In this document: in pieces, positions 1 to 10,790 of the stretch
Position numbering within the stretch: position 1 is the stretch's first letter
Layout: each line of letters starts with the position of its first letter
Assembly (NCBI GenBank): GCA_001803565.1
Contig: MHDQ01000078.1
Coordinates: 1-10,790, forward strand
Length of the DNA stretch: 10,790 nt
Direction of reading: 5' to 3'
Source of the DNA: Nitrospinae bacterium RIFCSPLOWO2_12_FULL_45_22
GTDB taxonomy: Bacteria; 2-12-FULL-45-22
Notes under the pieces: generated by a model
What the model saw: the letters and a program-made list of their open reading frames with translations, nothing else
Told to the model about the DNA's origin: nothing
Database searches by the model: none
Program-made: the position numbers and the translations under genes

Positions 1-148
1 TACTATAACTCATTTAAGTCAGTGAATTTATTACCTGACCAAAACAAAGTTTCTCATATAGAAACATAAGTTTAAAAAAATTATACGCATCTCCTCGAGC
101 TTATGTCAAGGTTTTTTATCCGGGAAAACCAAGGAAGAGAGGGAGATA

Positions 149-177
149 TTGACAGAGGTGTTCAAAAAACTTAAAAT
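149..177 (+). promoter_or_regulatory. sigma70-type promoter for tRNA-Leu
   Basis: A perfect -35 box TTGACA (149-154) is followed after 17 bases by TAAAAT (172-177), five of six matches to the -10 consensus. Transcription would start near 184, about 55 bases before the mature tRNA, leaving a 5' leader for RNase P. No other promoter-like pair of this quality lies nearby, and the tRNA is the first gene downstream. This is a visual consensus match only. Confidence 0.7.
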
Positions 178-238
178 AGCCTCGGCCATACAGATCATAA
201 GCCAAGATTACCTAAAAATAAATATCAGTGGAAGAGAT

Positions 239-325
239 GCCGGAGTGGTGAAACTGGTAGACGCGCGGGACTCAAAATCCCGTGGGCTTCGGCCCGTGTC
301 GGTTCGAGTCCGACCTCCGGCACCA
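239..325 (+). tRNA. tRNA-Leu (anticodon CAA)
   Basis: This is a class II tRNA of 87 nt including an encoded 3' CCA. The 7-bp acceptor stem pairs GCCGGAG with CTCCGGC. The anticodon stem CGGGA/TCCCG encloses the loop CTCAAAA, which places CAA at positions 34-36, so it reads the leucine codon TTG. The long variable arm (GGGC-TTCG-GCCC) and the T arm GTCGG-TTCGAGT-CCGAC are typical of tRNA-Leu. The acceptor is followed by discriminator A and then CCA. The gene stands alone with its own promoter at 149-177. I see no convincing hairpin-plus-T terminator after it. Confidence 0.97.
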
Positions 326-476
326 GTATTATCAGGATTTTTGCCCTTTCTACCTATTTTTGCTGCCGCTTTAGACAGCCTTTATCTTCCCGTTAACACT
401 CTTTACCCGCCCTTTTTATCCCTCTACTTTGTGAGGGGAGATAGGCAAGAAGTAATAGGGATAATTGTATACCATT

Positions 477-495
477 GAGGGGGCAAATAATGTAA
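477..495 (+). promoter_or_regulatory. Shine-Dalgarno followed by an ATG-TAA start-stop
   Basis: GAGGGGG (477-483) is followed after 6 bases by ATG (490-492), then at once by TAA (493-495), then ACT and the ATG of the methyltransferase at 499. All four codons are in the same frame. The ideally spaced start therefore belongs to a one-codon reading frame. The gene's usable start lies 9 bases further on. It may be a minimal upstream ORF that damps expression, or the original start with its second codon turned into a stop. Confidence 0.55.
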
Positions 496-498
496 ACT

Positions 499-1203
499 AT
501 GGAAAGAGATTTCAAAAAAGATTGGCGAGAATACCTGCCCAATAAAATACCAACTAAGGATAAATTACCGGATTACCTATACGAAGTCCTGGAAAAAGAA
601 GGGGTGAAAACGATTCTGGATCTAGGCTGTGGCACTGGTAGGTTCACAATTGATTTAGCCAAAAGAGGCTACTCGGTACTGGGCGTTGATATCAATCCAG
701 AGGCGATAGAGGCAGCAGAGTTAGAAGCAGCGAGATTGCACCCCGCTGAGCGTCGAGGCCGTTTAAGATTCATGGCCGGCGACGTTCTTAATGTAGAACT
801 AGATAGGGCTTCATTCGATGCCGTTTTGCTACAACTGGTAATTTCTATAATAGGCAAAGCTGAAGACCGGTGGAGATTAATACAAGTAGCAAGCTCTTTG
901 TTAAAACCTGTTGGGATATTATATTTTAGCGCCTCTGGTGTATCTGATGAAATTAACCCAACCTATGCTGACCTCTACCAAAAAGACCTGCCATTAACCG
1001 GCGAGGAATACACCTATTTTTCCAGGGATCAAAAAACTGGCGAAATACTCTACCTGACTCATCACTTTACTCACGAGGAGCTAGAGGAGTTACTAAAAGA
1101 AGATTTTGAAATAGAAATGATAAGCAAAGAAAGGGAGGCCAGTAGCCGTCGTCCTAGCGAGGCTGCCTATTTCTTCTATGTTATAGCCAGGCAAAAAATC
1201 TAA
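499..1203 (+). CDS. class I SAM-dependent methyltransferase
   Basis: The product is a 234-residue soluble Rossmann-fold methyltransferase. SAM-binding motif I is ILDLGCGTGRF (about residues 39-49). The acidic end of strand 2 is VDIN (Asp64), which should contact the ribose of SAM. Further motifs are AGDV (93-96), FDAVLLQLV (106-114) and LLKPVGILYFS (134-144). This is the layout of the Methyltransf_11/25 group, which transfers a methyl group from SAM to a small molecule, RNA or protein; nothing here fixes the substrate. The C-terminal third (HHFTHEELEELL onward) is a variable cap. The chosen ATG lies 15 bases after a GAGGGGG Shine-Dalgarno sequence, which is too far for efficient initiation. 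A better spaced ATG at 490 is in frame but directly followed by TAA (see findings). The gene sits between the tRNA and radC with no clear promoter of its own. Family certain, function unknown. Confidence 0.88.
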   Translation: MERDFKKDWREYLPNKIPTKDKLPDYLYEVLEKEGVKTILDLGCGTGRFTIDLAKRGYSVLGVDINPEAIEAAELEAARLHPAERRGRLRFMAGDVLNVELDRASFDAVLLQLVISIIGKAEDRWRLIQVASSLLKPVGILYFSASGVSDEINPTYADLYQKDLPLTGEEYTYFSRDQKTGEILYLTHHFTHEELEELLKEDFEIEMISKEREASSRRPSEAAYFFYVIARQKI

Positions 1204-1299
1204 CAGAGAGCAAAAACCCGGCTTAGCTTGGGGGCAGGGGTAATTTTCATCTTCCGATGAAGACCGGGGTGACTGTCTGTCCGTGATGGCATCGAGATT

Positions 1300-2033
1300 A
1301 TGAGAAAGAGTTTTCATAAGATGAATGAGATTAAGAAAACTGATGGAATAAAAAGTTGGCCCAGGTCAGAGCGACCTCGGGAGTTATTATTAGAGAAGGG
1401 GTCTGAATATGTATCCGACGCAGGATTGGTGGCTATACTTCTCCGCACCGGAATAAAGGGAAAGGATGCGGTGACCTTAGGAAGAGAACTCCTTAAGCAC
1501 TTTTCTGGCCTTAGGGGATTATTGAATGCCAACAAAAAGGACCTGGAAGAAATTAAAGGGTTAGGAACTGCCAAGATTGCTCAATTACTTGCAGCTACCG
1601 AGATTGCTAAACGACAGTTGAAAGAGGAAATAGTCGGTAAGACAGTCATTCATGGACCCGAAGATGTCCTTGAGTACCTTTCTTTATCAATGTCGAATCT
1701 CAAAGAAGAGGCATTTAAGGTTATCTACCTCAATAGTGCCAATGTCGTTCTGGCCGCCGAGGATCTATTTAAGGGCACTATCGATCAATCCGCGGTCTAT
1801 CCAAGGGAGATCATCAAAAGGGCCTTTGAATTGAATGCCTCAGGACTTATATTTGTCCACAATCACCCATCGGGCAATTTAGAGCCCAGCCAATATGACT
1901 TATCGCTAAATGAGAAACTGAACAAAGCCTGCCACGCTGTTGATCTGACCCCCTGGATCATCTGATTATAGGTCCTACCGGTTATATTTCATTCACGGAG
2001 AAAGGACTTTTAGTAAAAACAGTAAATACCTAA
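1300..2033 (+). pseudogene. radC: RadC/JAB-domain protein, frameshifted near the C-terminus
   Basis: The zero-frame product (1300-1965, 221 residues) is a RadC-family protein. It has the N-terminal IKSWPRSERPRE segment, a helix-hairpin-helix region (ELLKHFSGLRGLLN...IKGLGTAKIAQL, about 64-93), and a JAB/MPN metalloprotease-like domain. The full JAMM signature is present: HNHPSGNLEPSQYD fits HxH-x7-S-x2-D. The frame then ends early in TGA at 1963. Slipping back one base in the C5 run (1949-1953) continues with LDHLIIGPTGYISF...EKGLL to TAA at 2031-2033. This is the conserved RadC end, in register with no missing residue. The gene therefore lacks one C, or uses -1 slippage on CCC. The start is uncertain: ATG 1321 (MNEIKKTDG) fits family length better than ATG 1300, and neither has a strong Shine-Dalgarno. 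RadC was named as a DNA-repair protein but its role is unsettled; copies are common near mobile and defence genes. Confidence 0.88.
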
Positions 2034-2038
2034 AATTC

Positions 2039-2073
2039 ATAGTTTATCATCATATCTAATGATGATAAACTAT
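2039..2073. repeat. 35-bp perfect AT-rich palindrome
   Basis: A 15-bp arm (2039-2053) and its exact reverse complement (2059-2073) flank the 5-base centre ATCTA. The stem core reads TTTATCATCAT / ATGATGATAAA. It lies 6 bases after the restored radC stop. It could fold as a hairpin at the end of the radC transcript, but no T run follows on either strand, so a classic Rho-independent terminator is not supported. An operator or protein-binding site ahead of the promoters at 2088 and 2334 is an alternative. Confidence 0.75.
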
Positions 2074-2087
2074 ATTAATAACCTCAA

Positions 2088-2116
2088 TTGACACTTCTAT
2101 CGGTATATGGTTAAAT
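2088..2116 (+). promoter_or_regulatory. possible distal promoter upstream of the methylase operon
   Basis: A perfect TTGACA (2088-2093) is followed by a 17-base spacer and TTAAAT (2111-2116), four of six matches to the -10 consensus. Transcription would start near 2123, inside the short palindromic repeat and about 325 bases before the methyltransferase ATG. It is weaker than the promoter at 2334-2362 and could be a chance match in AT-rich DNA. Confidence 0.35.
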
Positions 2117-2119
2117 TAA

Positions 2120-2137
2120 CGCAGGCTAAAGCCTGCG
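2120..2137. repeat. short palindromic repeat (CGCAGGC-TAAA-GCCTGCG)
   Basis: A perfect 7-bp GC-rich stem with a 4-base loop stands out from AT-rich surroundings and is followed by GACTACC-like sequence. Elements of this form are scattered in intergenic regions of many genomes from uncultured bacteria; that link is recalled, not searched. Only one copy is visible here. Confidence 0.6.
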
Positions 2138-2255
2138 ACTACCACAAAACCGCATTAATAAAATGAAAATTCCTATGCTATTAAATTAGACTGGAAACAT
2201 AATGTAACTCCAGAAAGTATCCCTCCGATCATCTCTCCATCCTCCAACACATGCC

Positions 2256-2281
2256 AGGATTGCGAAAATCCTTTTGTTTTC
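2256..2281 (+). terminator. weak terminator-like hairpin
   Basis: AGGATT (2256-2261) pairs with AATCCT (2267-2272) around the loop GCGAA, and TTTGTTTTC follows. The 6-bp AT-rich stem is short for an intrinsic terminator. It lies between the distal and proximal candidate promoters, so it could end read-through from radC. Confidence 0.3.
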
Positions 2282-2333
2282 TTACCACAAATGGTAAAAT
2301 GGTTCTGGCTCTAGCGCTTACACCTAAGTAGAT

Positions 2334-2362
2334 TTGATAAAAATGGACGGAATAAATATGAT
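2334..2362 (+). promoter_or_regulatory. sigma70-type promoter for the methylase-PIN operon
   Basis: TTGATA (2334-2339, five of six) is followed by a 17-base spacer and TATGAT (2357-2362, five of six). Transcription would begin near 2369, giving a leader of about 80 nt before the ATG at 2449. The leader carries a hairpin at 2409-2425. This is the best promoter match in the gap and suggests the two-gene unit is transcribed separately from radC. Confidence 0.65.
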
Positions 2363-2408
2363 TATGGTTGAGAAAAGAAAATATTTCAGCGTCATGGCAA
2401 ATAAAGTT

Positions 2409-2425
2409 TATGCGGCTCCCGCATA
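2409..2425 (+). promoter_or_regulatory. leader hairpin before the methylase ribosome binding site
   Basis: TATGCGG (2409-2415) and CCGCATA (2419-2425) form a perfect 7-bp stem with loop CTC, ending 10 bases before the strong Shine-Dalgarno GGGAGGTG (2436-2443). A small open frame, ATG 2394 to TAG 2424-2426 (MANKVYAAPA), ends at the 3' side of the stem, so a ribosome translating it would melt the hairpin. That ATG has no clear Shine-Dalgarno sequence. A control role is inference from position only. Confidence 0.45.
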
Positions 2426-2448
2426 GGTAACGGTTGGGAGGTGAATGC

Positions 2449-5007
2449 ATGAAGCAACATGAGGTTGATATTTTATCAAGAGTTCGTGATGAGTTAAATC
2501 GCTTAGGTTATGTTGACAAACTTTTACGACAAGACTACGTCTTTGATGATGCATCCGCCACAGGAACCCGAGAGCTGCATATACCCTTAGCAGCCTTTGC
2601 CCAATGGCCACCATCTTATCGCAATGCTTGTATAGGTGTGCTGACTGCGAACCGTCAACCGGGTCCAGAGCATGTTTCAAGCTATAGCACCCTAGGAGCC
2701 CCAATGTTTTTTGAGACGTTTCAGGACCGTATTGACCGATACCGTGTTGAAGCCTCTCGCCATGCTGTTTTCTTGGAGTCAATTCCAGCCCCAAATATCC
2801 CTAATGCCTTTGAGGCCAACAGAGAGAAGTGGGCCCCTGACACAATTTTCCGTGCCAAAGCTATCACGCCATTGACAGGTCCTGTTCAGCTCGATTTTAT
2901 TGATATAGGCCTTTTCCCTGCTCTAAAGGGTATGATCCATGGTAAATTGGATCGTTTACTAAAGGATATATTACAGAAAGCCATCATTACTTATGAGAGC
3001 AACACCTCAGGCGTCAAACCGGACGAAACTTTGCTCTTTCGCCTGATTTTCCGTTTCCTTGCGGCTAAAATTTTAAAGGACAAGAAACATCCTGGTAACT
3101 GGGCGACCCCCCAGGCAAATAGCATAATTGAAGAAATCCAAAGGTTTTATGGGCTCACTGCACCTAACATGCAAAAGATCCTTGATGAGCCGGGTACACA
3201 GCAGATTGTGTGGGATAAGTTTCGAAACGCTTTTAACTTTCAAAATACCTCTGTGGATGATCTGGCGTTTATTTATGAAAATACTTTAATAAGAGAAGAA
3301 ACTCGTAAACAATTTGGAATACACAGTACTCCGCCTGTTATAGCCGAACTCATAGTCGACCGACTTCCCTTTGAATCATTGCCTCAGGATGAACGTTACG
3401 TTCTCGAACCCTGTGCAGGACACGGTGTTTTTTTGGTTGCAGCCTTGCGCCGTCTTCGCGAATTATTGCCCATATCCTGGAGAGATAAGGAGAGACACAG
3501 GTATCTAAAAGACCGATTAACTGCTATTGAGATTGACCCTTTTGCCGCTGAGGTCTGCCGCCTATCCTTGATATTAGCTGATTATCCCAATCCGGACGGC
3601 TGGGAAATTATGCCTGAAGATATCTTCGCCAGCGACGTTCTAAAGAAGCAATTAAAAACATCCCAAATTGTTCTCTGTAACCCCCCCTTTGAAGATTTTA
3701 CCCCATTTGAAAGAATCCGTTATAGTAATAAAGTTCTAAGTGTCCACAAACCTTATGAGATTCTTCGCAGAGTCCTGGAACATCCTCCGGCCATGTTCGG
3801 CTTTGTGTTACCAAAATCTGCTATAGTGGGAGGAAGATATAGAGACCTCCTAGAACAAATTGTCCGTACTTATAAGAACATAGAAACGATAGCTCTACCG
3901 GATCGGATCTTTGTGTTTTCAGATCAAGAGGCTATGTTAGTCCTTGCTTATGAACATGATAAGACAGCCAATGCAAACGTTCTTACTCGCACCTTTTGGG
4001 TACGCGAAAATGATAGGCAATCGTTGCTCGAAACAAGGCGATTACCCAAAGAGATTAGCAAGGTCATAAATCGCTCAACTCATACGAGACCTATTTCCCC
4101 TTGGAATGCTCCCCTTTCAGAAATTTGGGATTATCTCAAAAGTTATCCCCAGTTAAAGGATGTGGCCGACATTCACAGGGGTATTGAATGGAATATTTCT
4201 CTCAAAGAAAATAGAAGTATTTTGATATCTTCTGAGCCAAAACCCGGCTTCAAAAAAGGAATAGACAAGGTTCGAAGGAAAATAGAGCCTTACTATACCG
4301 AGGGATTCGTATATCTCAATATGGATGAGCAGTATCGCCGAACAACCTCGCATTCATTGCCTTGGGATAGTCCCAAGGTCGTTGCTAACAGTCGCAGGAT
4401 AAGCCGGGGGCCGTGGAGGATTGTCGGTAGTCCGGATTCAAGCGGCTTGGTTTGTTACACAAATTTTTTAGGGATGTGGCCAAAAGTAGATATAAATATA
4501 GAAGCGCTTTCAGCTATCATTAATTCCCCTTTGGTCAATGCGGCGCTTTATCTTAAAGGGTATGGACGTGATAACCTGATTAATATATTGGAAAAAATCC
4601 CAATCCCTTTTTCGATGGCTATTGATACAGATAGAATTACTCTCCTCGCCAGGTACTATGCCAAACTTAGATCAGAATTTAAAAAGGGCCCTGTTAAAGC
4701 AACAACTATTAATGAATGTATCAAAACACTAATGGAAATAGACGGTTTGATTCTAAAGGCCTACGATCTCCCTCCAGGGCTTGAACGGAAGCTTTTGGAG
4801 TTTTTTAGAGGATACGACAGACCCCTTCCATTTGGTTTTCCTGACTATTATCCGCCGAAATTTGGACCCTATATTCCATTGCATAAGTACCTTAAGATGG
4901 ATTTTAAACAAGCCAGCGCCAAAGAGCTTCTTAAAAGAATCATCCCTTTTGATTCCGAAGAAATACATGAACTGGTAATGGATATTGAGAGAAGGCAATC
5001 CTTATGA
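2449..5007 (+). CDS. N6-adenine DNA methyltransferase with C-terminal recognition-like region (Eco57I/type IIG-like)
   Basis: The product is an 852-residue protein expected to methylate adenine in DNA using SAM. ATG 2449 is chosen because GGGAGGTG lies 5 bases upstream; the in-frame TTG at 2434 lies before that site. Residues 1-160 form an N-terminal domain I do not recognise; a helical region follows (about 160-285). The catalytic core has FGIHSTPPVIAELIVDRL (289-306), motif I VLEPCAGHGVF (318-328), acidic IEID (360-363), and catalytic motif IV NPPF (411-414), the gamma-class N6-adenine signature. The C-terminal half (about 550-720) has features of target-recognition regions in single-chain type II/BREX-like methylases: LKDVADIHRGIEW, WDSPKVVANSRR and INSPLVNAALYLKG. 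I see no PD-(D/E)XK nuclease motif or helicase domain, so it is not an obvious type IIG restriction enzyme. Its stop overlaps the start of the PIN nuclease gene (ATGA), so the two are probably translated together. It may be an orphan methylase or the modification half of an unusual two-gene system. Confidence 0.9.
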   Translation: MKQHEVDILSRVRDELNRLGYVDKLLRQDYVFDDASATGTRELHIPLAAFAQWPPSYRNACIGVLTANRQPGPEHVSSYSTLGAPMFFETFQDRIDRYRVEASRHAVFLESIPAPNIPNAFEANREKWAPDTIFRAKAITPLTGPVQLDFIDIGLFPALKGMIHGKLDRLLKDILQKAIITYESNTSGVKPDETLLFRLIFRFLAAKILKDKKHPGNWATPQANSIIEEIQRFYGLTAPNMQKILDEPGTQQIVWDKFRNAFNFQNTSVDDLAFIYENTLIREETRKQFGIHSTPPVIAELIVDRLPFESLPQDERYVLEPCAGHGVFLVAALRRLRELLPISWRDKERHRYLKDRLTAIEIDPFAAEVCRLSLILADYPNPDGWEIMPEDIFASDVLKKQLKTSQIVLCNPPFEDFTPFERIRYSNKVLSVHKPYEILRRVLEHPPAMFGFVLPKSAIVGGRYRDLLEQIVRTYKNIETIALPDRIFVFSDQEAMLVLAYEHDKTANANVLTRTFWVRENDRQSLLETRRLPKEISKVINRSTHTRPISPWNAPLSEIWDYLKSYPQLKDVADIHRGIEWNISLKENRSILISSEPKPGFKKGIDKVRRKIEPYYTEGFVYLNMDEQYRRTTSHSLPWDSPKVVANSRRISRGPWRIVGSPDSSGLVCYTNFLGMWPKVDINIEALSAIINSPLVNAALYLKGYGRDNLINILEKIPIPFSMAIDTDRITLLARYYAKLRSEFKKGPVKATTINECIKTLMEIDGLILKAYDLPPGLERKLLEFFRGYDRPLPFGFPDYYPPKFGPYIPLHKYLKMDFKQASAKELLKRIIPFDSEEIHELVMDIERRQSL

Positions 5008-5513
5008 ATGGTTACCTATTGGATACCAACGCAGCCAGTATCCTTTGGGATGCCCGGCATACGGATCACAACAAAATCAAATCTTTTCTCGAAAACCATT
5101 CCCAGTCCCTCCTCTGGATATCTATTATCGTGCTGGCAGAGGTTGAGTACGGACTAAAAACAGCTCCCAAAATGGACACAAGTCGTCAGAATGATGTCAG
5201 GAATGAGATGGCCAAATTTCCCGAAGTTCTTGACCTGGATAAGCACACGGTCTCTTCCTATTCGGATATTCGTGCAGAATTGTTTAAAACTTATTCACCA
5301 AAAGTCCGGAGAAAAAGGCTAACAGCAAAATGGCCAGAAGACCTTTTTGAACGAACAAGTGCCAAAGAACTCGGAGTCCAAGAAAATGATATATGGATAG
5401 CATCGCAAGCAATTCAATACAATTTAATACTGGTTACTGATGATCGCATGTCCCGGCTTGTAGAAGTCTCTAATTCCCTCAATGACCCCCTACAAATTGC
5501 TAAATGGAGATAA
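5004..5513 (+). CDS. PIN-domain (VapC-like) ribonuclease
   Basis: The 169-residue product has all the acidic positions of a PIN nuclease, which uses Mg2+ or Mn2+ to cut RNA. These are Asp7 in YLLDTNAAS, Glu46 in VLAEVEYG, Asp129 in ENDIWIAS, and Asp146/Asp147 in LVTDD. Between the third helix and ENDIW lies a basic insert (about 96-124, with KVRRKRLTAKW) that makes it longer than a typical VapC of about 130-140 residues. The start ATG overlaps the methyltransferase stop by 4 bases and has no separate promoter, so translation is probably coupled. No VapB-type antitoxin gene precedes it; the partner position is taken by the DNA methyltransferase. It could be a toxin held in check by that protein, the effector of a defence module, or a VapC captured by chance. 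The nuclease fold is nearly certain; its target is unknown. Confidence 0.9.
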   Translation: MNGYLLDTNAASILWDARHTDHNKIKSFLENHSQSLLWISIIVLAEVEYGLKTAPKMDTSRQNDVRNEMAKFPEVLDLDKHTVSSYSDIRAELFKTYSPKVRRKRLTAKWPEDLFERTSAKELGVQENDIWIASQAIQYNLILVTDDRMSRLVEVSNSLNDPLQIAKWR

Positions 5514-5712
5514 CGATGCGATAGTATAATAGGGGTCATCCATTAAATGGCTTGTCAGGTAAAAACATACCTCTCTGGTTTAAAAAATTGTTTATTTTTC
5601 CCCTTGGCTTACCCAAGCCCAGCACAACCCCTCATCTTCACTACCCTTTTCGCACCCGTTATTTCTTTCGGAATAGGTTTACGTTCAGGCTTCGCTAATA
5701 CACACCAGGTAG
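5514..5712. other. non-coding stretch after the PIN gene
   Basis: I find no supported gene here. There is a TATAAT (5525-5530) without a matching -35 box, a small palindrome CCATTAAATGG, and a 5-bp hairpin (AGGTA/TACCT) too weak to call a terminator. Open frames crossing it show no recognisable motif. The stretch separates the intact PIN gene from the remnant of a second PIN gene and may be debris from past rearrangement. Confidence 0.4.
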
Positions 5713-5895
5713 CAAGCAGGATCCAGGTCAATATATATTATTGTCGGCATGGACCAGCCTGGTGCGGTGGATATTCAGACACTGGAATGGATTGAATCCG
5801 GAAAAGTAATAGATCGTACCCTGGTTAAGGCGCTTCAGACGGAGATAGATGAAGGCCAAGCCGAAAGGATAGCCCTTTCCATTGAGTTGGGTTAA
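5713..5895 (+). pseudogene. remnant of a DUF3368-like PIN toxin gene
   Basis: In one frame after a TAG at 5710 the translation runs IIVGMDQPGAVDI, TLEWIESGKVI and TEIDEGQAERIALSIELG, then stops at TAA (5893-5895). This follows the middle and late part of DUF3368-type PIN proteins, where an L/IDEGEAEAIALALELG segment is normally followed by the last catalytic strand (ADLLLLDE). The fragment stops just before that strand and lacks the N-terminal VSNTSPLI-type segment with the first catalytic Asp, so it cannot be an active nuclease. The only ATG, at 5749, would give 48 residues without a Shine-Dalgarno sequence. Its TAA overlaps the stop of the convergent ABC gene in the palindrome TTAA. The assignment rests on remembered family consensus. 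Confidence 0.55.
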
Positions 5896-7856
5896 TAATA
5901 ATTTATAGAGTTCAAGCATACAAAATTTTCGGTCGCTTTTGGGATGTCCTGTGGGTGGTGATATATATAAGAGATACTGTATTGGAGTTGATATAGTTTC
6001 GAATATATTCCGTCCTTATTTAATAATTGTTTATGGGTCCCTATCTCTACCAATTTACCTTTCTGCAAGACGATTATTTTATCGCAATTTAAGATAGTAG
6101 ACAATCTATGCGCAATAACTATGGTTGTTCTACCCTCCATTACCTTTTTGGTGGCTTCTTGTATAATTGACTCTGTTATTAGATCAACGTTACTGGTAGC
6201 TTCGTCCAGTATGATTATATCAGGGTTATAAATGAGGATTCTTGCGAACGATATAAGCTGTTTCTCACCCATAGACAGATTAGCCCCCCCCTCGACAACT
6301 TTACTATTAATCCCTTCTGGCAATTTATCTATATAGTAGCTGAGTCCCAGTTCCTTTGATATATATTTCAGATCCTCCGCAGGTATATCTCGGAAGAGGG
6401 TTAAGTTATCCTTTACGGTGCCATGGAAGAGGAAGAGGTCCTGCTGCACTATACCTATCCGGGAGCGGAGCAAGGTCTTATCATATTCCCTCAAATCTAT
6501 CTGGTCTAATAAAATCCTGCCTTGGTTGGGTTCGTAAAAGCGACACAAGAGGTTCATAAGGGTAGTTTTACCGGCCCCGGTTGCCCCAACCACGGCAACC
6601 GATTCCCCGGGCTCCACCGCAAAGCTTATATCCTTTAACACGTAATCTTCCCCAGAATAGGCAAAATAAACCCTATCAAACTCTATTTTTCCTCTTGTAT
6701 AATCATCCTCAATAGTTATCCTACCCTTGTCAATTTTATCTTCTCTTATGCTAATTCCTTCTTCTGCTGAAACTTTAACACCTGACCCTGCTTCATCATC
6801 TAGATAGTCCTTATGATGCCTTTGCCTGCCCTGTCCGGGCCGAGCCATCTCCGAAGGCTCAGCCATGAGATTAAATACCCTCTCAGCCGAGGCCATAGCC
6901 GCCTGAAAGATGGTATACTTATCGGCCAAATCCCATATAGGCATGTATAAATTCTGCGCATAAGCTAAGAAGGCCACTAATATACCTAGTTTTAATTCCC
7001 CCTGGCTATGTAATAAGCCACCGTACCAGAGGATCATAGCGATGGCTAGAGCGGTAAGGATGGTGGTAGTAGGGTGAAAGAGGGCATAGTATCTGGTTGC
7101 CTGCATTTGTTCTTTATAATAGTCTTTACTAATCTCTTTGAATTTCTCAAAATTCTTACCCTCTTTACCAAACAACTGAATGATCTCCATCCCGGATATG
7201 TTCTCGTTCAAGAAGGCATTTATCCTTGCCAGTTTCCTCTTTATCTCTCGGTATATACCTCGTAACCTGTTGCTAAAGAAGAGTGTAGAAAGTATCATGA
7301 GGGGCAAAATACCCAGTGTAATAAGGGCAAGCTTTAAATTAAGGATCAAGAGGAATATAATTACCCCAAATATCAGGCATATATCTCCTATTACTACGAT
7401 GATACCGGATGAAAATAGCTCACTTAGCGTGTTGATATCATTGGCTACCCGGGTAACGATCCTTCCCACTGGATTCTTATCGAAGAATGGTATGGGTAAG
7501 GTCTGGATATGGGAGAACAAGTCCATCCGTAAGTCGCGGATAACGTTTTGCCCCAGGAGTTGCAAAACATAAGTCTGGGCAAAGAGAACCGCCATGGTTA
7601 CCGTGTATATGCCAAATAAGGCCAGGCCTAATAGGATAACCATACTTTTATCGGCTTTATAAATCCCTTCATCGATGACATAACCGATGATATAGGGCGG
7701 GATAAGAGAAAGAGCGGTAGATAGCACCACTAAGGCAAGGGATAAGATTCCACAATAAGGGTACCTCTTCAGGTAGATAAAAAGCTTTCCTACCAAGGCC
7801 CGATCATATAGCTTTACGTTTATGGTATCATCTACGTGATAGAAACTGTTATGCAT
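5892..7856 (-). CDS. ABC exporter half-transporter, catalytic-type NBD (second subunit)
   Basis: The 654-residue product has a six-helix exporter transmembrane domain (about 25-320) followed by an ATP-binding domain: Walker A GATGAGKT (424-431), Q-loop VQQD (Gln472), signature LSMGE (527-531), Walker B IIILDE with catalytic Glu552, and H-loop IAHR (His583). It belongs to the MsbA/LmrA/BmrCD-like group that exports lipids, drugs or peptides; the substrate is not readable. The signature departs from LSGGQ, as expected for the partner of a subunit with a degenerate Walker B, and that partner is the upstream gene. Two oddities: the linker between domains (about 335-388) is long and highly charged, and about 28 residues (627-654) follow LYQLQY, where such proteins normally end. 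The ATG at 7856 has an AAGGA only 2 bases upstream. Family certain. Confidence 0.93.
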   Translation of the reverse strand: MHNSFYHVDDTINVKLYDRALVGKLFIYLKRYPYCGILSLALVVLSTALSLIPPYIIGYVIDEGIYKADKSMVILLGLALFGIYTVTMAVLFAQTYVLQLLGQNVIRDLRMDLFSHIQTLPIPFFDKNPVGRIVTRVANDINTLSELFSSGIIVVIGDICLIFGVIIFLLILNLKLALITLGILPLMILSTLFFSNRLRGIYREIKRKLARINAFLNENISGMEIIQLFGKEGKNFEKFKEISKDYYKEQMQATRYYALFHPTTTILTALAIAMILWYGGLLHSQGELKLGILVAFLAYAQNLYMPIWDLADKYTIFQAAMASAERVFNLMAEPSEMARPGQGRQRHHKDYLDDEAGSGVKVSAEEGISIREDKIDKGRITIEDDYTRGKIEFDRVYFAYSGEDYVLKDISFAVEPGESVAVVGATGAGKTTLMNLLCRFYEPNQGRILLDQIDLREYDKTLLRSRIGIVQQDLFLFHGTVKDNLTLFRDIPAEDLKYISKELGLSYYIDKLPEGINSKVVEGGANLSMGEKQLISFARILIYNPDIIILDEATSNVDLITESIIQEATKKVMEGRTTIVIAHRLSTILNCDKIIVLQKGKLVEIGTHKQLLNKDGIYSKLYQLQYSISYIYHHPQDIPKATENFVCLNSINYY

Positions 7857-7867
7857 AGTCCTTATTT

Positions 7868-7926
7868 GCTGGGTTGGGAGACCCAGCCCTACCCCGCAGG
7901 ATAGGATCGGGTCTCCTGACCCGATC
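7868..7926. repeat. compound palindrome: two inverted hairpin repeats between the ABC genes
   Basis: Two hairpins lie in the 81-bp gap. One is GCTGGGT-TGGGAG-ACCCAGC (7868-7887, 7-bp stem). The other is GATCGGGTC-TCCT-GACCCGATC (7905-7926, 9-bp stem). Read in opposite directions they share the core GGGTnnGGAGACCC, followed by CCTAYCCYGC, so they are inverted copies of one short repeat meeting at a shared centre. On the minus strand the hairpins lie between the two transporter cistrons. They could stabilise or attenuate the message, or be a dispersed repeat insertion. No T run follows, so termination is not supported. Confidence 0.7.
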
Positions 7927-7937
7927 TTTAACTTACT

Positions 7938-9686
7938 TTATAACCTTACTTCTTTTAGCTGGCTTAACTTGAGGAGTCTTGCATATAAACCATCTTGTAC
8001 CATCAGCCAGTCATGCGTGCCGCTTTCCACAATCTCTCCTTCTTTAAACACGACTATCAGGTCAGCATCCTTTATCTTTGCCAGCCTGTGGGTAATAATA
8101 ATAGTTGTAAACCCCTTCCTCTCGGCTCTGAGGCACTCCAATATTGCCTCTTCCTTTTCTGCATCCACTGATGAGAAGGGGTCATCCAGTATGAGTATGG
8201 GTGGTTTTCTTATAAGGGCCCGGGCTAGGGTGAGCCTCTGCTTCTGCCCACCAGATAGGTTGATGCCACGTTCTCCCAGATATGAGCCATACTGGTACGG
8301 AAACCCCTGTATCTCGTCATGAATCATCGCAATCCTCGCGGCTTCTTCCACCGAATAGGATGGCCGGGCATCCGTGCCCAGGCCAAAGGCGATATTTTCA
8401 TAGATAGTTTCTGAAAAGAGGAAAGGGTCTTGGGGTACAAATCCTATATTTTCCCTGATCCTCTCAAGCGGAATGTCAGTTATATCCACTCCATCTAAAA
8501 ACAACATTCCCTGGTTAACCGGGTGAAGTCCAGGTATTAATCTAGCCAAGGTACTCTTGCCTGATCCTATGGGACCAACAAATGCTACCACCATCCCCGG
8601 ACTTATATCCAAGTTGATACCCTCAAGGACTGGTTTAGAGGCTCCGGGATAACTAAACGATAAGTTTTTAAACTCTATCTTGCCTTTTATAGTTTTTATA
8701 TCCCGGTGATGATCGCCCTCTGGTCTCTCTGGCGTGGTGTCTAGTACCTCCCTTATCCGTTTCATAGAGGTCAATCCCTTTTGTAATAGATAAATTGCCC
8801 AGCCAACGGCCTTCATAGGCCATATAAGCCTGGATATATACCTTTGAAAGGCGACAAATGTTCCGATGGTTATAGCGCCATTTATAACGTATATACCACC
8901 TACCATTATGAGGAGCACCATCCCGGCATCCATGAAATACTCCATAAACGGTACGAAATATGCCTGGATAAAAGCCAGGGACAGGTTCTTATCCCGGCAT
9001 TTATCATTAATCTGCCTAAAAGATGCTACCTCTTGCTCAGCCCTATTGAATGTCTTTATAACCCTTATACCAGAGACATTCTCCCTTACCTTCTAACTTA
9101 TCTCAGAGAAGGCCTTCAGGACCTCATCAGATTTACGATCTATAATATTCCGGTTCTTTTTGACGAAGAAGGGGAGGCAGGGTAAGAAAAGAAAACTCAC
9201 TAGGGTAAGCCCAGGGGAGAGATAGATCATTATAATAGGGATGGTTAATATATAGAACAATGAGTCCAACGTTATAAGTATCCCCATGCCTACTGCCATT
9301 CTAACTGACTCTGAATCGTTCGTAGCCCTAGACATAATGTCACCCGTAGGTATGGATTGGAAGTAAGATCTGGAAAGCTTCTCCAGGTGTCGGAAAAGCC
9401 TTGCTTTCATATCGTATTCTATCCGGAAGGCAGCACCGACTAAATTCATCCGCCAGCCATATCGAAATAAACCTTGCAGGCAGGCTACCAAGACGAAAAG
9501 GATCGTAAGGGGCATTACACTCCTTTTGCTGGTAATATCAGATATATAGTCAATGGCTACTTTGATTATCAGAGGTGGGAATAGATCAAGGATATCTACT
9601 GCCAGCAGGGAGAGAATGCCCTGGATATAAAAACGTTTATGTCTCTTGATATTGTCCCAAAATAAATAGGTATCCCTGGATAACAT
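7938..9686 (-). pseudogene. ABC exporter half-transporter, degenerate-type NBD, interrupted by an in-frame TAG
   Basis: The gene spans 582 sense positions in one frame, with TAG at codon 198 (9095-9093). Before it are the first four transmembrane helices. After it the frame continues KVRENVSGIRVIKTFNRAEQ, the normal follow-on in this family, where Glu or Gln usually fills the TAG position. The ATP-binding domain is intact: Walker A GPIGSGKS (about 371-378), Gln419 of the Q-loop, signature LSGGQ (477-481), Walker B LILDD with Asp502 in place of the catalytic Glu, and His533 of the H-loop. Asp at that site marks the non-catalytic half of heterodimeric exporters. It is the first gene of the operon, 81 bp ahead of its partner. 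ATG 9686 is preceded by in-frame TTG 9689; AGGAAGAGG sits 12 and 9 bases before them. If TAG is a true stop, the pair cannot work and the partner is stranded. Confidence 0.88.
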
Positions 9687-9765
9687 CAAAAGCTTTAGCC
9701 TCTTCCTACGACTACTGGCCTGAAAGTTGATTCCTGAAACCTCATACCTCTATACCTACTTAAGT

Positions 9766-9795
9766 ATTATACCGACTTCTCGGTGAAAATCTTCA
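9766..9795 (-). promoter_or_regulatory. candidate promoter for the ABC exporter operon
   Basis: On the minus strand a perfect TATAAT (9771-9766) lies about 80 bases before the ATG at 9686. The best -35 at 18 bases upstream is TGAAGA, only three of six matches, and there is no extended TGn. Position and -10 box support it; the -35 does not. Confidence 0.45.
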
Positions 9796-9796
9796 T

Positions 9797-9937
9797 GAGA
9801 TTGCGGAGGCTGTTCCGAGCGGGGTGAGGAATCTCGCGCCGGGTTTGCTTCGGCTTCGCCTTGCAACTGCTAGCGCACCTTGCAATGACATTACGAAACC
9901 TTTTTCTGTCATTGAGTCCAAAGCGAAGCAATCTCAG
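9797..9937. repeat. degenerate palindromic repeat cluster (GCAATGACA / TGTCATTG ... GAAGCAATCTC)
   Basis: CAATGACA (9883-9890) faces TGTCATTG (9907-9914). To the right is AAGCGAAGCAATCTC (about 9920-9935). To the left, inverted, is a longer unit with TTGCTTCGGCTTCGCC, and GAGATT (9797-9802) faces AATCTC (9830-9835). These are the ends of a repeat of the form TGTCATTGCGAG...CGAAGCAATCTC, known to me from many environmental genomes (recalled, not searched). Two copies appear head to head, both diverged. No gene is supported in this part of the divergent gap. Confidence 0.55.
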
Positions 9938-9980
9938 TCCCTCGTTATTTCACAGAGAATTGCGGCCTTGACTCCCAATA

Positions 9981-10021
9981 TAACAGTCTATAATATAGGG
10001 ACGTTATGCCAAAGACTGTTA
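9981..10021. repeat. 9-bp inverted repeat with 23-base loop
   Basis: TAACAGTCT (9981-9989) and AGACTGTTA (10013-10021) are exact reverse complements. The loop is AT-rich. It lies between the repeat cluster at 9797-9937 and the nested element at 10047-10260, and no function is evident. Confidence 0.45.
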
Positions 10022-10046
10022 GTTATCAGAAGGCTGGTGACAGCAA

Positions 10047-10260
10047 TATATTATCCTGGATCCAGAGCGAATGATGAAAATCCTTTATAAAATGATGATT
10101 CGGCTATCACAGAATGTAGGGACGGGGTTCATCCCCGTCCGCTCTGCCTGTGCTATGGCAGACCTGTCTGCCATAGCACAGGCAGGCAGGTAAAACGGAC
10201 AGCCACAAGGGCTGTCCCTACAGTTAAATAAAAAATTCGCTCTGGATTCAGGATTATATA
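10047..10260. mobile_element. MITE-like nested palindromic element with 26-bp terminal inverted repeats
   Basis: A 26-base segment at 10047-10072 (core ATCCAGAGCGAAT) is repeated in inverted orientation at 10235-10260 with 24 of 26 bases matching. The enclosed DNA has no gene but holds a second nested inverted structure at 10115-10222. The ends are TATAT-rich, compatible with a TA target, but no longer flanking duplication is visible. The right end lies about 30 bp before the CoA-transferase start codon. No transposase is present, so it could only be non-autonomous. The two inverted repeats might instead be separate dispersed repeats. Confidence 0.5.
10115..10222. repeat. two inverted 27-bp hairpin units flanking a 19-bp perfect hairpin
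   Basis: The left unit (10115-10141) and right unit (10196-10222, inverted) share TGTAGGGAC at the outer end and CYGTCCG at the inner end. Each folds into an 8-bp stem: GGACGGGG/CCCCGTCC on the left and GGACAGCC/GGCTGTCC on the right. Between them a 19-bp perfect stem (10144-10162 with 10167-10185, loop CCTG) carries CTGCCTGTGCTATGGCAGA and its complement. The whole block could form a cruciform in DNA or a branched RNA. Confidence 0.75.
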
Positions 10261-10276
10261 AAACGAAGTAAATAAA

Positions 10277-10284
10277 GAGAGGGG
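10277..10284 (+). promoter_or_regulatory. ribosome binding site of the CoA-transferase gene
   Basis: GAGAGGGG ends 6 bases before ATG 10291. This is good Shine-Dalgarno spacing and fixes the start. No clear promoter pair is seen upstream; a TATATA at 10255-10260, within the right inverted repeat, lacks a matching -35 box. Confidence 0.6.
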
Positions 10285-10290
10285 CAAAAG

Positions 10291-10790
10291 ATGAAGAAAG
10301 AAGAGTTTTACCGAGAAAAGAAAGAGACTACTATCGGGCCTTTAGAAGGCGTAAGGGTTCTGGAGGCCACTACTTCGGGGGCAGGACCTTGGGCCGGGAC
10401 CCTACTGGCGGATATGGGTGCCGAGGTGATAAAGATTGATCAACCAGAGGCCGGGGATGTGGTAAGAAGGCTCCCACCCTTCTTGAAGCCTGAAATGCCC
10501 CAAGAAACCGGCCTATTCCACCTATCCATCAATAGGAACAAGAAGAATATCACCCTTAAATTATCCTCTGACGAAGGGGCCGAGATATTCAAGAGACTGG
10601 CCCTGCATATGGATATTATTATCGAGAATTTCAAGCCCGGGACTATGGATAAATGGGGTATAGGCTATAAAGCTATTGAACAGATACACCCGGCAATCAT
10701 CTATACCTCGGTTTCAGGCTTCGGACAATATGGCCCGCTCCATACCCGGGCAGGTTATGATGGTGTAGGCCAGGCTATGGGTGGCCTGAT
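10291..10790 (+). CDS. CaiB/BaiF-family (class III) CoA-transferase, N-terminal part
   Basis: The first 166 codons are present and the frame is open at the window edge; full-length members are about 400 residues. Family features are PLEGVRVLEAT (17-27), GPWAGTLLADMGAEVIKID (32-50) at the CoA-binding N-terminal fold, FHLSINRNKKNITL (76-89), IIIENFKPGTMDKWGI (109-124) and YTSVSGFGQYGP (138-149). Asp157 in AGYDGVGQAMGG matches the catalytic aspartate (Asp169 of formyl-CoA transferase), which carries the acyl group as a mixed anhydride. Such enzymes move CoA between carboxylic acids, for example carnitine, bile acids, oxalate/formate or aromatic succinates. The acyl substrate cannot be told from this part. 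It is divergent from the ABC operon, and the repeat-filled gap separates them. Confidence 0.93.
   Translation, partial: MKKEEFYREKKETTIGPLEGVRVLEATTSGAGPWAGTLLADMGAEVIKIDQPEAGDVVRRLPPFLKPEMPQETGLFHLSINRNKKNITLKLSSDEGAEIFKRLALHMDIIIENFKPGTMDKWGIGYKAIEQIHPAIIYTSVSGFGQYGPLHTRAGYDGVGQAMGGL

Follow-up and report, generated by a model that had tools for sequence, protein, structure and literature searches.

Pairing of a DNA methylase tail with the neighbouring toxin points to a possible, so far undescribed module for suicide defence or addiction in bacteria that joins restriction-modification and toxin-antitoxin logic

The methylase and PIN genes and their relatives

We analysed a 10,790-nucleotide stretch of DNA (hereafter the window) from Nitrospinae bacterium RIFCSPLOWO2_12_FULL_45_22 (assembly GCA_001803565.1, contig MHDQ01000078.1, positions 1 to 10,790 of the forward strand), which contains the gene for an N6-adenine DNA methyltransferase (MTase, here also methylase) followed by that for a VapC-like PIN-domain nuclease. 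The MTase gene (2449-5007, forward strand) runs from an ATG at 2449 to a TGA ending at 5007 and encodes 852 residues with a single-chain, type IIG-like architecture. A Shine-Dalgarno-like GGGAGGTG ahead of this ATG (2436-2443, forward strand) can be read directly from the sequence. The PIN gene (5004-5513, forward strand) has its ATG at 5004 and its stop at 5513, and encodes 169 residues. As an earlier note made from the DNA sequence had described, the two intact reading frames share a 4-bp ATGA stop-start overlap (5004-5007, forward strand).

Pfam recognises both proteins (N6_Mtase, E=4.6e-10; PIN, E=1.2e-13). The catalytic NPPF motif of the methyltransferase is encoded at 3679-3690 on the forward strand (residues 411-414), and its N, P and P are invariant in 60/60 aligned relatives, in an alignment that omits one row from a plasmid record. 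The window PIN protein has the conserved acidic active site of the VapBC toxins, and its residues D7, E46, D129 and D147 are invariant in all 50 intact relatives. Comparison with the closest relative (L008, a Desulfobacteraceae metagenome-assembled genome) gave dN/dS values of ~0.12 for the MTase and ~0.20 for PIN, so that both genes are under purifying selection. The claim that both genes keep their catalytic residues and that neither is decaying was therefore confirmed. A private promoter, which the earlier note had placed ahead of the MTase gene, was not supported, as promoter-like matches upstream number 5 against 2.1 +/- 1.7 expected, which is near chance.

A tblastn search of plasmids returned three full-length relatives of the window methylase, the next gene encoding PIN in two and a RES-domain protein in the third (Rhizobium sp. 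Q54). An alignment-based scan of ~85,000 genomes added 59 further loci, giving 62 relatives and, together with the window, 63 loci. The hosts are mainly Alphaproteobacteria, and also include Chloroflexota, Acidobacteriota, Thermodesulfobacteriota, Myxococcota, KSB1 and Beta- and Gammaproteobacteria. The next gene was unreadable in two loci (L053, at a contig end, and L065, with a methylase fragment); in all 61 readable loci, the window included, it encodes a toxin or nuclease, namely PIN in 54, RES in four (L006, L052, L060 and L061) and HNH in three (L011, L013 and L014). Eight of the PIN partners were recognised directly in the sequences, beyond the automatic pattern. The spacing between methylase and partner ranges from -23 to +20 bp across all relatives. 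No gene for a small DNA-binding VapB antitoxin adjoins the PIN gene in the window, and in every relative that could be read it is the methylase gene that lies next to PIN; the case in which the PIN gene is usually found with a VapB-type antitoxin, as the earlier note had considered, did not occur in any readable locus.

As the methylase had served as the query for the first loci, a separate search was made with PIN by itself. Among 396 Sphingomonadales genomes the methylase was found in six and PIN in the identical six, adjacent every time, and among 397 Hyphomicrobiales genomes both were found in the same two, again adjacent (thresholds 1e-30 for the methylase and 1e-12 for PIN; the samples include both query-source genomes). 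At these thresholds the 793 alphaproteobacterial genomes hence contain neither an orphan methylase nor an orphan PIN, all 8 of the 8 carriers having the two genes adjacent. The count of adjacent homologues across genomes that the earlier note had proposed thus bears out the pairing in both samples. Broken PIN frames occur in L026, L051 and L064, and one further PIN is cut by a contig end; by contrast, no intact PIN was seen without a methylase.

Pairwise distances between methylases and between PIN proteins are correlated (r=0.965), and no permutation out of 2000 gave an equally high value. Furthermore, near-identical copies are found across families, for example in Brucella, Oceaniglobus and Sphingobium (L028, L029 and L054), which shows that the methylase was transferred together with its partner. 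A phage or virus origin of the module was rejected, as no relatives were found in phages or viral contigs. In the window's own phylum, for which two genomes were covered, there are no close relatives besides its own genome.

Nuclease-fold domain and C-terminal tail of the methylase

The first 145 residues of the window methylase were folded alone with AlphaFold 2 (AF2; pLDDT 91.9). The resulting N-terminal domain (residues 1-142, encoded at 2449-2874 on the forward strand) has the fold of a PD-(D/E)XK restriction nuclease and is predicted to be a dead one. The top 15 rows of a VIA-align comparison are all restriction-endonuclease-like (Z 9.2 to 6.3), with scores of 9.2 for HsdR, 8.7 for DrdV and 8.2 for BpuSI, and the first outsider has Z 6.2; Foldseek alone gave a weak result, its best match being BpuSI (E 0.05). 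Across the 60 alignment rows no Asp or Glu of the domain reaches 93% conservation, and the PD-(D/E)XK active site is therefore absent.

For the methylase as a whole, fold matches were obtained on the relative L015 and include CamA, DrdV, BpuSI, M.BseCI and BrxX. Residues 155-760 of this model, comprising the methylase and recognition parts, match CamA (Z 23.7 over 474 residues), M.BseCI, BrxX and type IIG enzymes, which confirms by fold, on this relative, the target-recognition-like region that had been described in the earlier note. The family thus combines an N6-adenine methylase and a recognition domain in one chain, as type IIG enzymes do, and lacks their active PD-(D/E)XK domain. On the basis of these models the methylase probably descends from a type IIG enzyme whose cutting domain has gone dead, the harmful activity having been outsourced.

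At the other end of the protein, a conserved LERKLLEFFRGYDRP boundary (consensus LERxLLxFFxGxxRP), which falls at residue 792 in the window methylase, is followed by a partner-specific C-terminal tail of 60 residues (4825-5004, forward strand) that we propose as a toxin-binding (antitoxin) segment. The class of the tail follows the class of the partner in all loci: tails are 53-66 residues long and have a common recognisable motif with PIN, 70-78 residues long with HNH and 169-172 residues long with RES. A profile of the PIN-type tail, run against 296 genomes, matches these methylases only.

Sequence similarity to known antitoxins is seen in the tails of the RES-linked methylases. The Xre/MbcA/ParS middle domain PF23125 is found in 4/4 of these tails and the C-terminal toxin-binding domain PF09722 in 3/4, in the right order and with a best E of ~1e-5 each, the scores being mostly under the Pfam curated cut-offs. 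The best match to a solved structure is a ParS antitoxin, at a weak E=1.2. The partners have RES domains with E=1e-16 to 1e-18, RES being the very toxin for which these antitoxin domains are named. The toxin-binding part of an antitoxin is thus fused to the methylase in the RES variant, which gives direct sequence support to the methylase as an antitoxin. The four RES-linked methylases form one clade nested among the PIN-linked ones, with the PIN-linked L049 as sister, and the methylase tree requires three partner changes; some of its branches are long, and hence the HNH placement is unsure. The methylases of the HNH partners L013 and L014 have a tail of their own type, and L014 has no visible MerR gene (see below); these proteins could be a separate DNA-cutting branch of the same scaffold.

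Models for the methylase-toxin module

We propose, with a probability of about 0.6, a mobile module in which the site-specific adenine methylase would be at once DNA sensor and antitoxin, acting on the toxin whose gene follows its own. In such a model the methylase would be made first, per the gene order, and its C-terminal tail would capture the cognate toxin (in the window the PIN RNase, in other loci RES or HNH). It would hold this toxin inactive as long as the methylase is present and working on host DNA, which would be kept methylated. Loss of the methylase, its inhibition by a phage protein or its engagement on invading DNA that is unmethylated would set the toxin free or activate it, and the toxin would then stop growth, resulting in abortive infection and/or addiction. 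The MerR-like protein encoded upstream in most relatives probably regulates the operon. The first half of this cycle, in which PIN-type tails would neutralise PIN, is suggested by the order of the genes, their joint inheritance and the antitoxin domain fused in the RES variant, and the trigger and biological outcome of the cycle are modelled on PrrC-PrrI (PMC3506569, PMC12707154). The latter is the well-studied case given in a proposal from 2012, by which linked suicide toxins are held back by the immunity proteins themselves, as they come without an antitoxin gene (PMC3506569). This published hypothesis lends support to our model, as do the broken PIN frames set against the lack of intact PIN genes without a methylase, and the other restriction or defence genes beside some loci (see below).

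The module may also, more tentatively, represent a new hybrid class. Ordinary type II antitoxins consist of a DNA-binding domain joined to a toxin-binding tail; here the DNA-binding half would be a full site-specific methyltransferase, once a type IIG restriction enzyme and now defunct as such, with a matching tail and a swappable RNase, NAD-consuming enzyme or DNase, and DNA methylation status would decide toxin release. The earlier note had placed the methylase in the partner position of an RNase. The adjacency, the absence of a VapB-type partner and the antitoxin domain fused in the RES variant uphold this view; it requires revision in that most relatives have a third, MerR-like gene, the partner is sometimes RES or HNH, and the methylase probably stems from a type IIG enzyme and has kept the nuclease domain in a dead form.

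Several points weigh against the methylase as antitoxin. The PIN-type tail has no convincing match in Pfam or the PDB and falls in no known antitoxin family, and its identification as a known antitoxin domain was rejected on these grounds. Co-variation of tail and PIN beyond the shared tree is weak (partial r 0.10) and, because the RES clade has one origin, the match between tail and toxin rests on few independent events. A read-through MTase-PIN fusion, which is in frame in L015, was folded with AF2 and gave the MTase and PIN folds with a tail pLDDT of about 68-74, and with no interface measure it indicates nothing firm on tail binding. For the HNH variant, ordinary restriction of DNA would be an equally good explanation.

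The same variant bears on an alternative in which the locus encodes a restriction-modification system with an unusual cutter, the methylase recruiting PIN or HNH to unmethylated foreign DNA so that nucleic acid is cut there in place of the dead PD-(D/E)XK domain. The presence of a dead nuclease domain inside a type IIG-like methylase is consistent with such a system, as are the HNH partners (L011, L013 and L014), which belong to a typical DNA nuclease family. VapC-like PIN domains, however, are RNases, and the RES partners are not nucleases at all and come with the toxin-binding domain of an antitoxin; RES toxins act on NAD. We regard this alternative as unlikely.

A further candidate for the antitoxin is the product of the upstream gene. 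A MerR-like helix-turn-helix (HTH) gene lies just upstream of the methylase in 52 of the 62 relatives, including all four RES loci, and usually overlaps it by 4 bp. Pfam significance for MerR is reached only in some members (L008, E=1.3e-10; L022, 3.3e-6), the remaining ones being assigned by shared position, length and family-specific profiles. In the betaproteobacterial locus L055 an upstream gene of similar size and position (5438-5980) is without a MerR-like-profile or Pfam match. The window keeps a remnant of about 80-95 bp (2328-2423, forward strand; profile E=3e-4), in which 2334-2411 encodes 13/26 residues identical to the L008 MerR-like protein, with 80% DNA identity over 46 bp to L007. 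We considered whether these 26 residues might be a functional peptide, and they look like a decayed remnant. The statement in the earlier note that there is no antitoxin is thus true of the window as it stands and incomplete for its relatives, which carry the upstream gene.

Toxin-antitoxin pairs of MerR and PIN proteins have been described (PMC2701414), and the methylase might then be a passenger, or only a regulator that methylates the operator. This seems quite improbable, as PIN stays intact in the window, which has lost MerR, and in L009 and L010, whose sequenced upstream regions contain none; related MerR-like genes also precede RES, and the partner-specific part is carried by the methylase and not by MerR. 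Because the window keeps PIN under selection without MerR, and L009 and L010 lack it, MerR is more likely to be an operon regulator than an indispensable antitoxin.

The patchy, mobile distribution, the near-identical copies in different families and the occurrence on plasmids would also fit pure plasmid or island addiction with no role in defence, where cells that lose the operon are killed by the toxin, as in post-segregational killing by restriction-modification or toxin-antitoxin systems. This explanation leaves the conserved site-specific methylase partner unexplained and some loci adjoin other defence genes (see below), so that we consider it very unlikely. Chance adjacency has no supporting evidence and is ruled out by the 61/61 readable loci and 8/8 genomes.

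Comparison with known systems and other features of the window

In PrrC-EcoPrrI an anticodon nuclease is latent in a type Ic complex and, in a manner resembling the cycle proposed here, a methylase complex restrains an RNase toxin and releases it upon restriction inhibition or unmodified DNA (PMC3506569, PMC12707154). PrrC, however, is an ABC-ATPase-fused HEPN nuclease that occurs with a complete HsdRMS, whereas in our module a single methylase, dead in its nuclease domain and bearing a partner-specific tail, goes with a small PIN, RES or HNH partner. Neither HsdRMS nor a PrrC ABC-HEPN nuclease is in the window, where the methylase is accompanied by PIN only. The RES-linked relatives resemble RES-Xre pairs (COG5654-COG5642, ParST/MbcTA type) in that a RES toxin lies next to a protein with the antitoxin middle and C-terminal toxin-binding domains. 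They differ in that the N-terminal Xre HTH is missing, its place taken by a whole DNA methyltransferase, and in the overlapping methylase-toxin order behind a MerR-like gene.

With VapBC and MerR-PIN pairs (PMC2701414) the module shares a VapC-like PIN with four conserved acids and, in the relatives, an upstream MerR-like protein. In contrast to these pairs it has no VapB, and an 850-residue methylase stands between MerR and PIN, so that MerR is not directly beside PIN; MerR is also dispensable in some lineages and only a remnant in the window. Type IIG enzymes (DrdV, BpuSI) and the solitary CamA and M.BseCI likewise hold a methylase core and a recognition domain in one chain, and the type IIG enzymes have the N-terminal nuclease-fold domain as well, but the module is without a nuclease active site and always has a toxin gene behind. 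PanAT-like combinatorial toxin-antitoxin networks (PMC10440598) are similar in combining a constant neutralising part with varied toxins, and dissimilar in that our constant part is a DNA methylase whose tail changes with the toxin.

The methylase core is distantly similar to the mad2 methylase of MADS (PADLOC mad2, E=5e-17), with a score of 27.8 bits against a family cut-off of 720 and no other mad gene recognised. PADLOC and NCBIfam both recognise the methylase only distantly; the PADLOC profiles gave no match for PIN, and NCBIfam puts it distantly among VapC families. MADS, BREX and the known PADLOC systems were rejected on account of this distant methylase similarity and the unmatched PIN. 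PIN RNases do figure as backup effectors in a survey of BREX-related loci published in 2026, but the systems there are far larger (PMC12839542). In the full-text searchable literature, which leaves most subscription papers and all bioRxiv preprints uncovered, we found general hypotheses only, and no account of a methylase paired with PIN or RES.

We regard the module as combining type IIG restriction-modification with a type II toxin-antitoxin system in one hybrid. If our reading is true, restriction-modification and toxin-antitoxin systems are physically joined, suggesting a restriction enzyme turned abortive-infection sensor. With only two or three genes, this family allows the restraint idea of 2012 to be tested directly, its natural toxin swaps and the tails that match them serving as internal controls. 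The locus also adds an anti-phage candidate that is not recognised as a system by the PADLOC-DB models searched.

Other defence genes lie near the module in some relatives: a Shedu-domain gene in L005, type ISP enzymes in L027 (9014-12643), L030 and L048, MmeI-like enzymes in L028 (9151-11838) and L054, and type IIG enzymes in L006 and L043. In several hosts such single-chain restriction-modification enzymes (type ISP; MmeI-like) follow ~0.5-0.7 kb behind the module, and a functional link or a shared island is possible.

Elsewhere in the window, a RadC-like gene (1300-2035) loses its frame at a five-C run (about 1949-1953), and its expected C-terminus (DHLIIGPTGYISFTEKGLL...) carries on in another frame, indicating a frameshift or sequencing error. 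Hairpins at 2038-2074 and 2120-2137 are situated between RadC and the methylase; terminator-like sites, these included, number 3 against 0.4 expected by chance. A 48-residue frame at 5748-5894 (MDQPGAVDIQTLEWIESGKVIDRTLVKALQTEIDEGQAERIALSIELG) appears by eye to be a piece of another PIN-type toxin (DUF3368-like), unrelated to the first, and has no Pfam match. On the reverse strand an ABC transporter gene (7938-9689) is split in two frames near 8946-9096 by a frameshift or stop, which may be an assembly error, beside an intact one (5892-7856). Finally, an inverted repeat of the type 'gggacggggttcatccccgtcc ... ggacagccacaagggctgtccc' at 10117-10227, ahead of a CoA-transferase gene, is probably a dispersed element.

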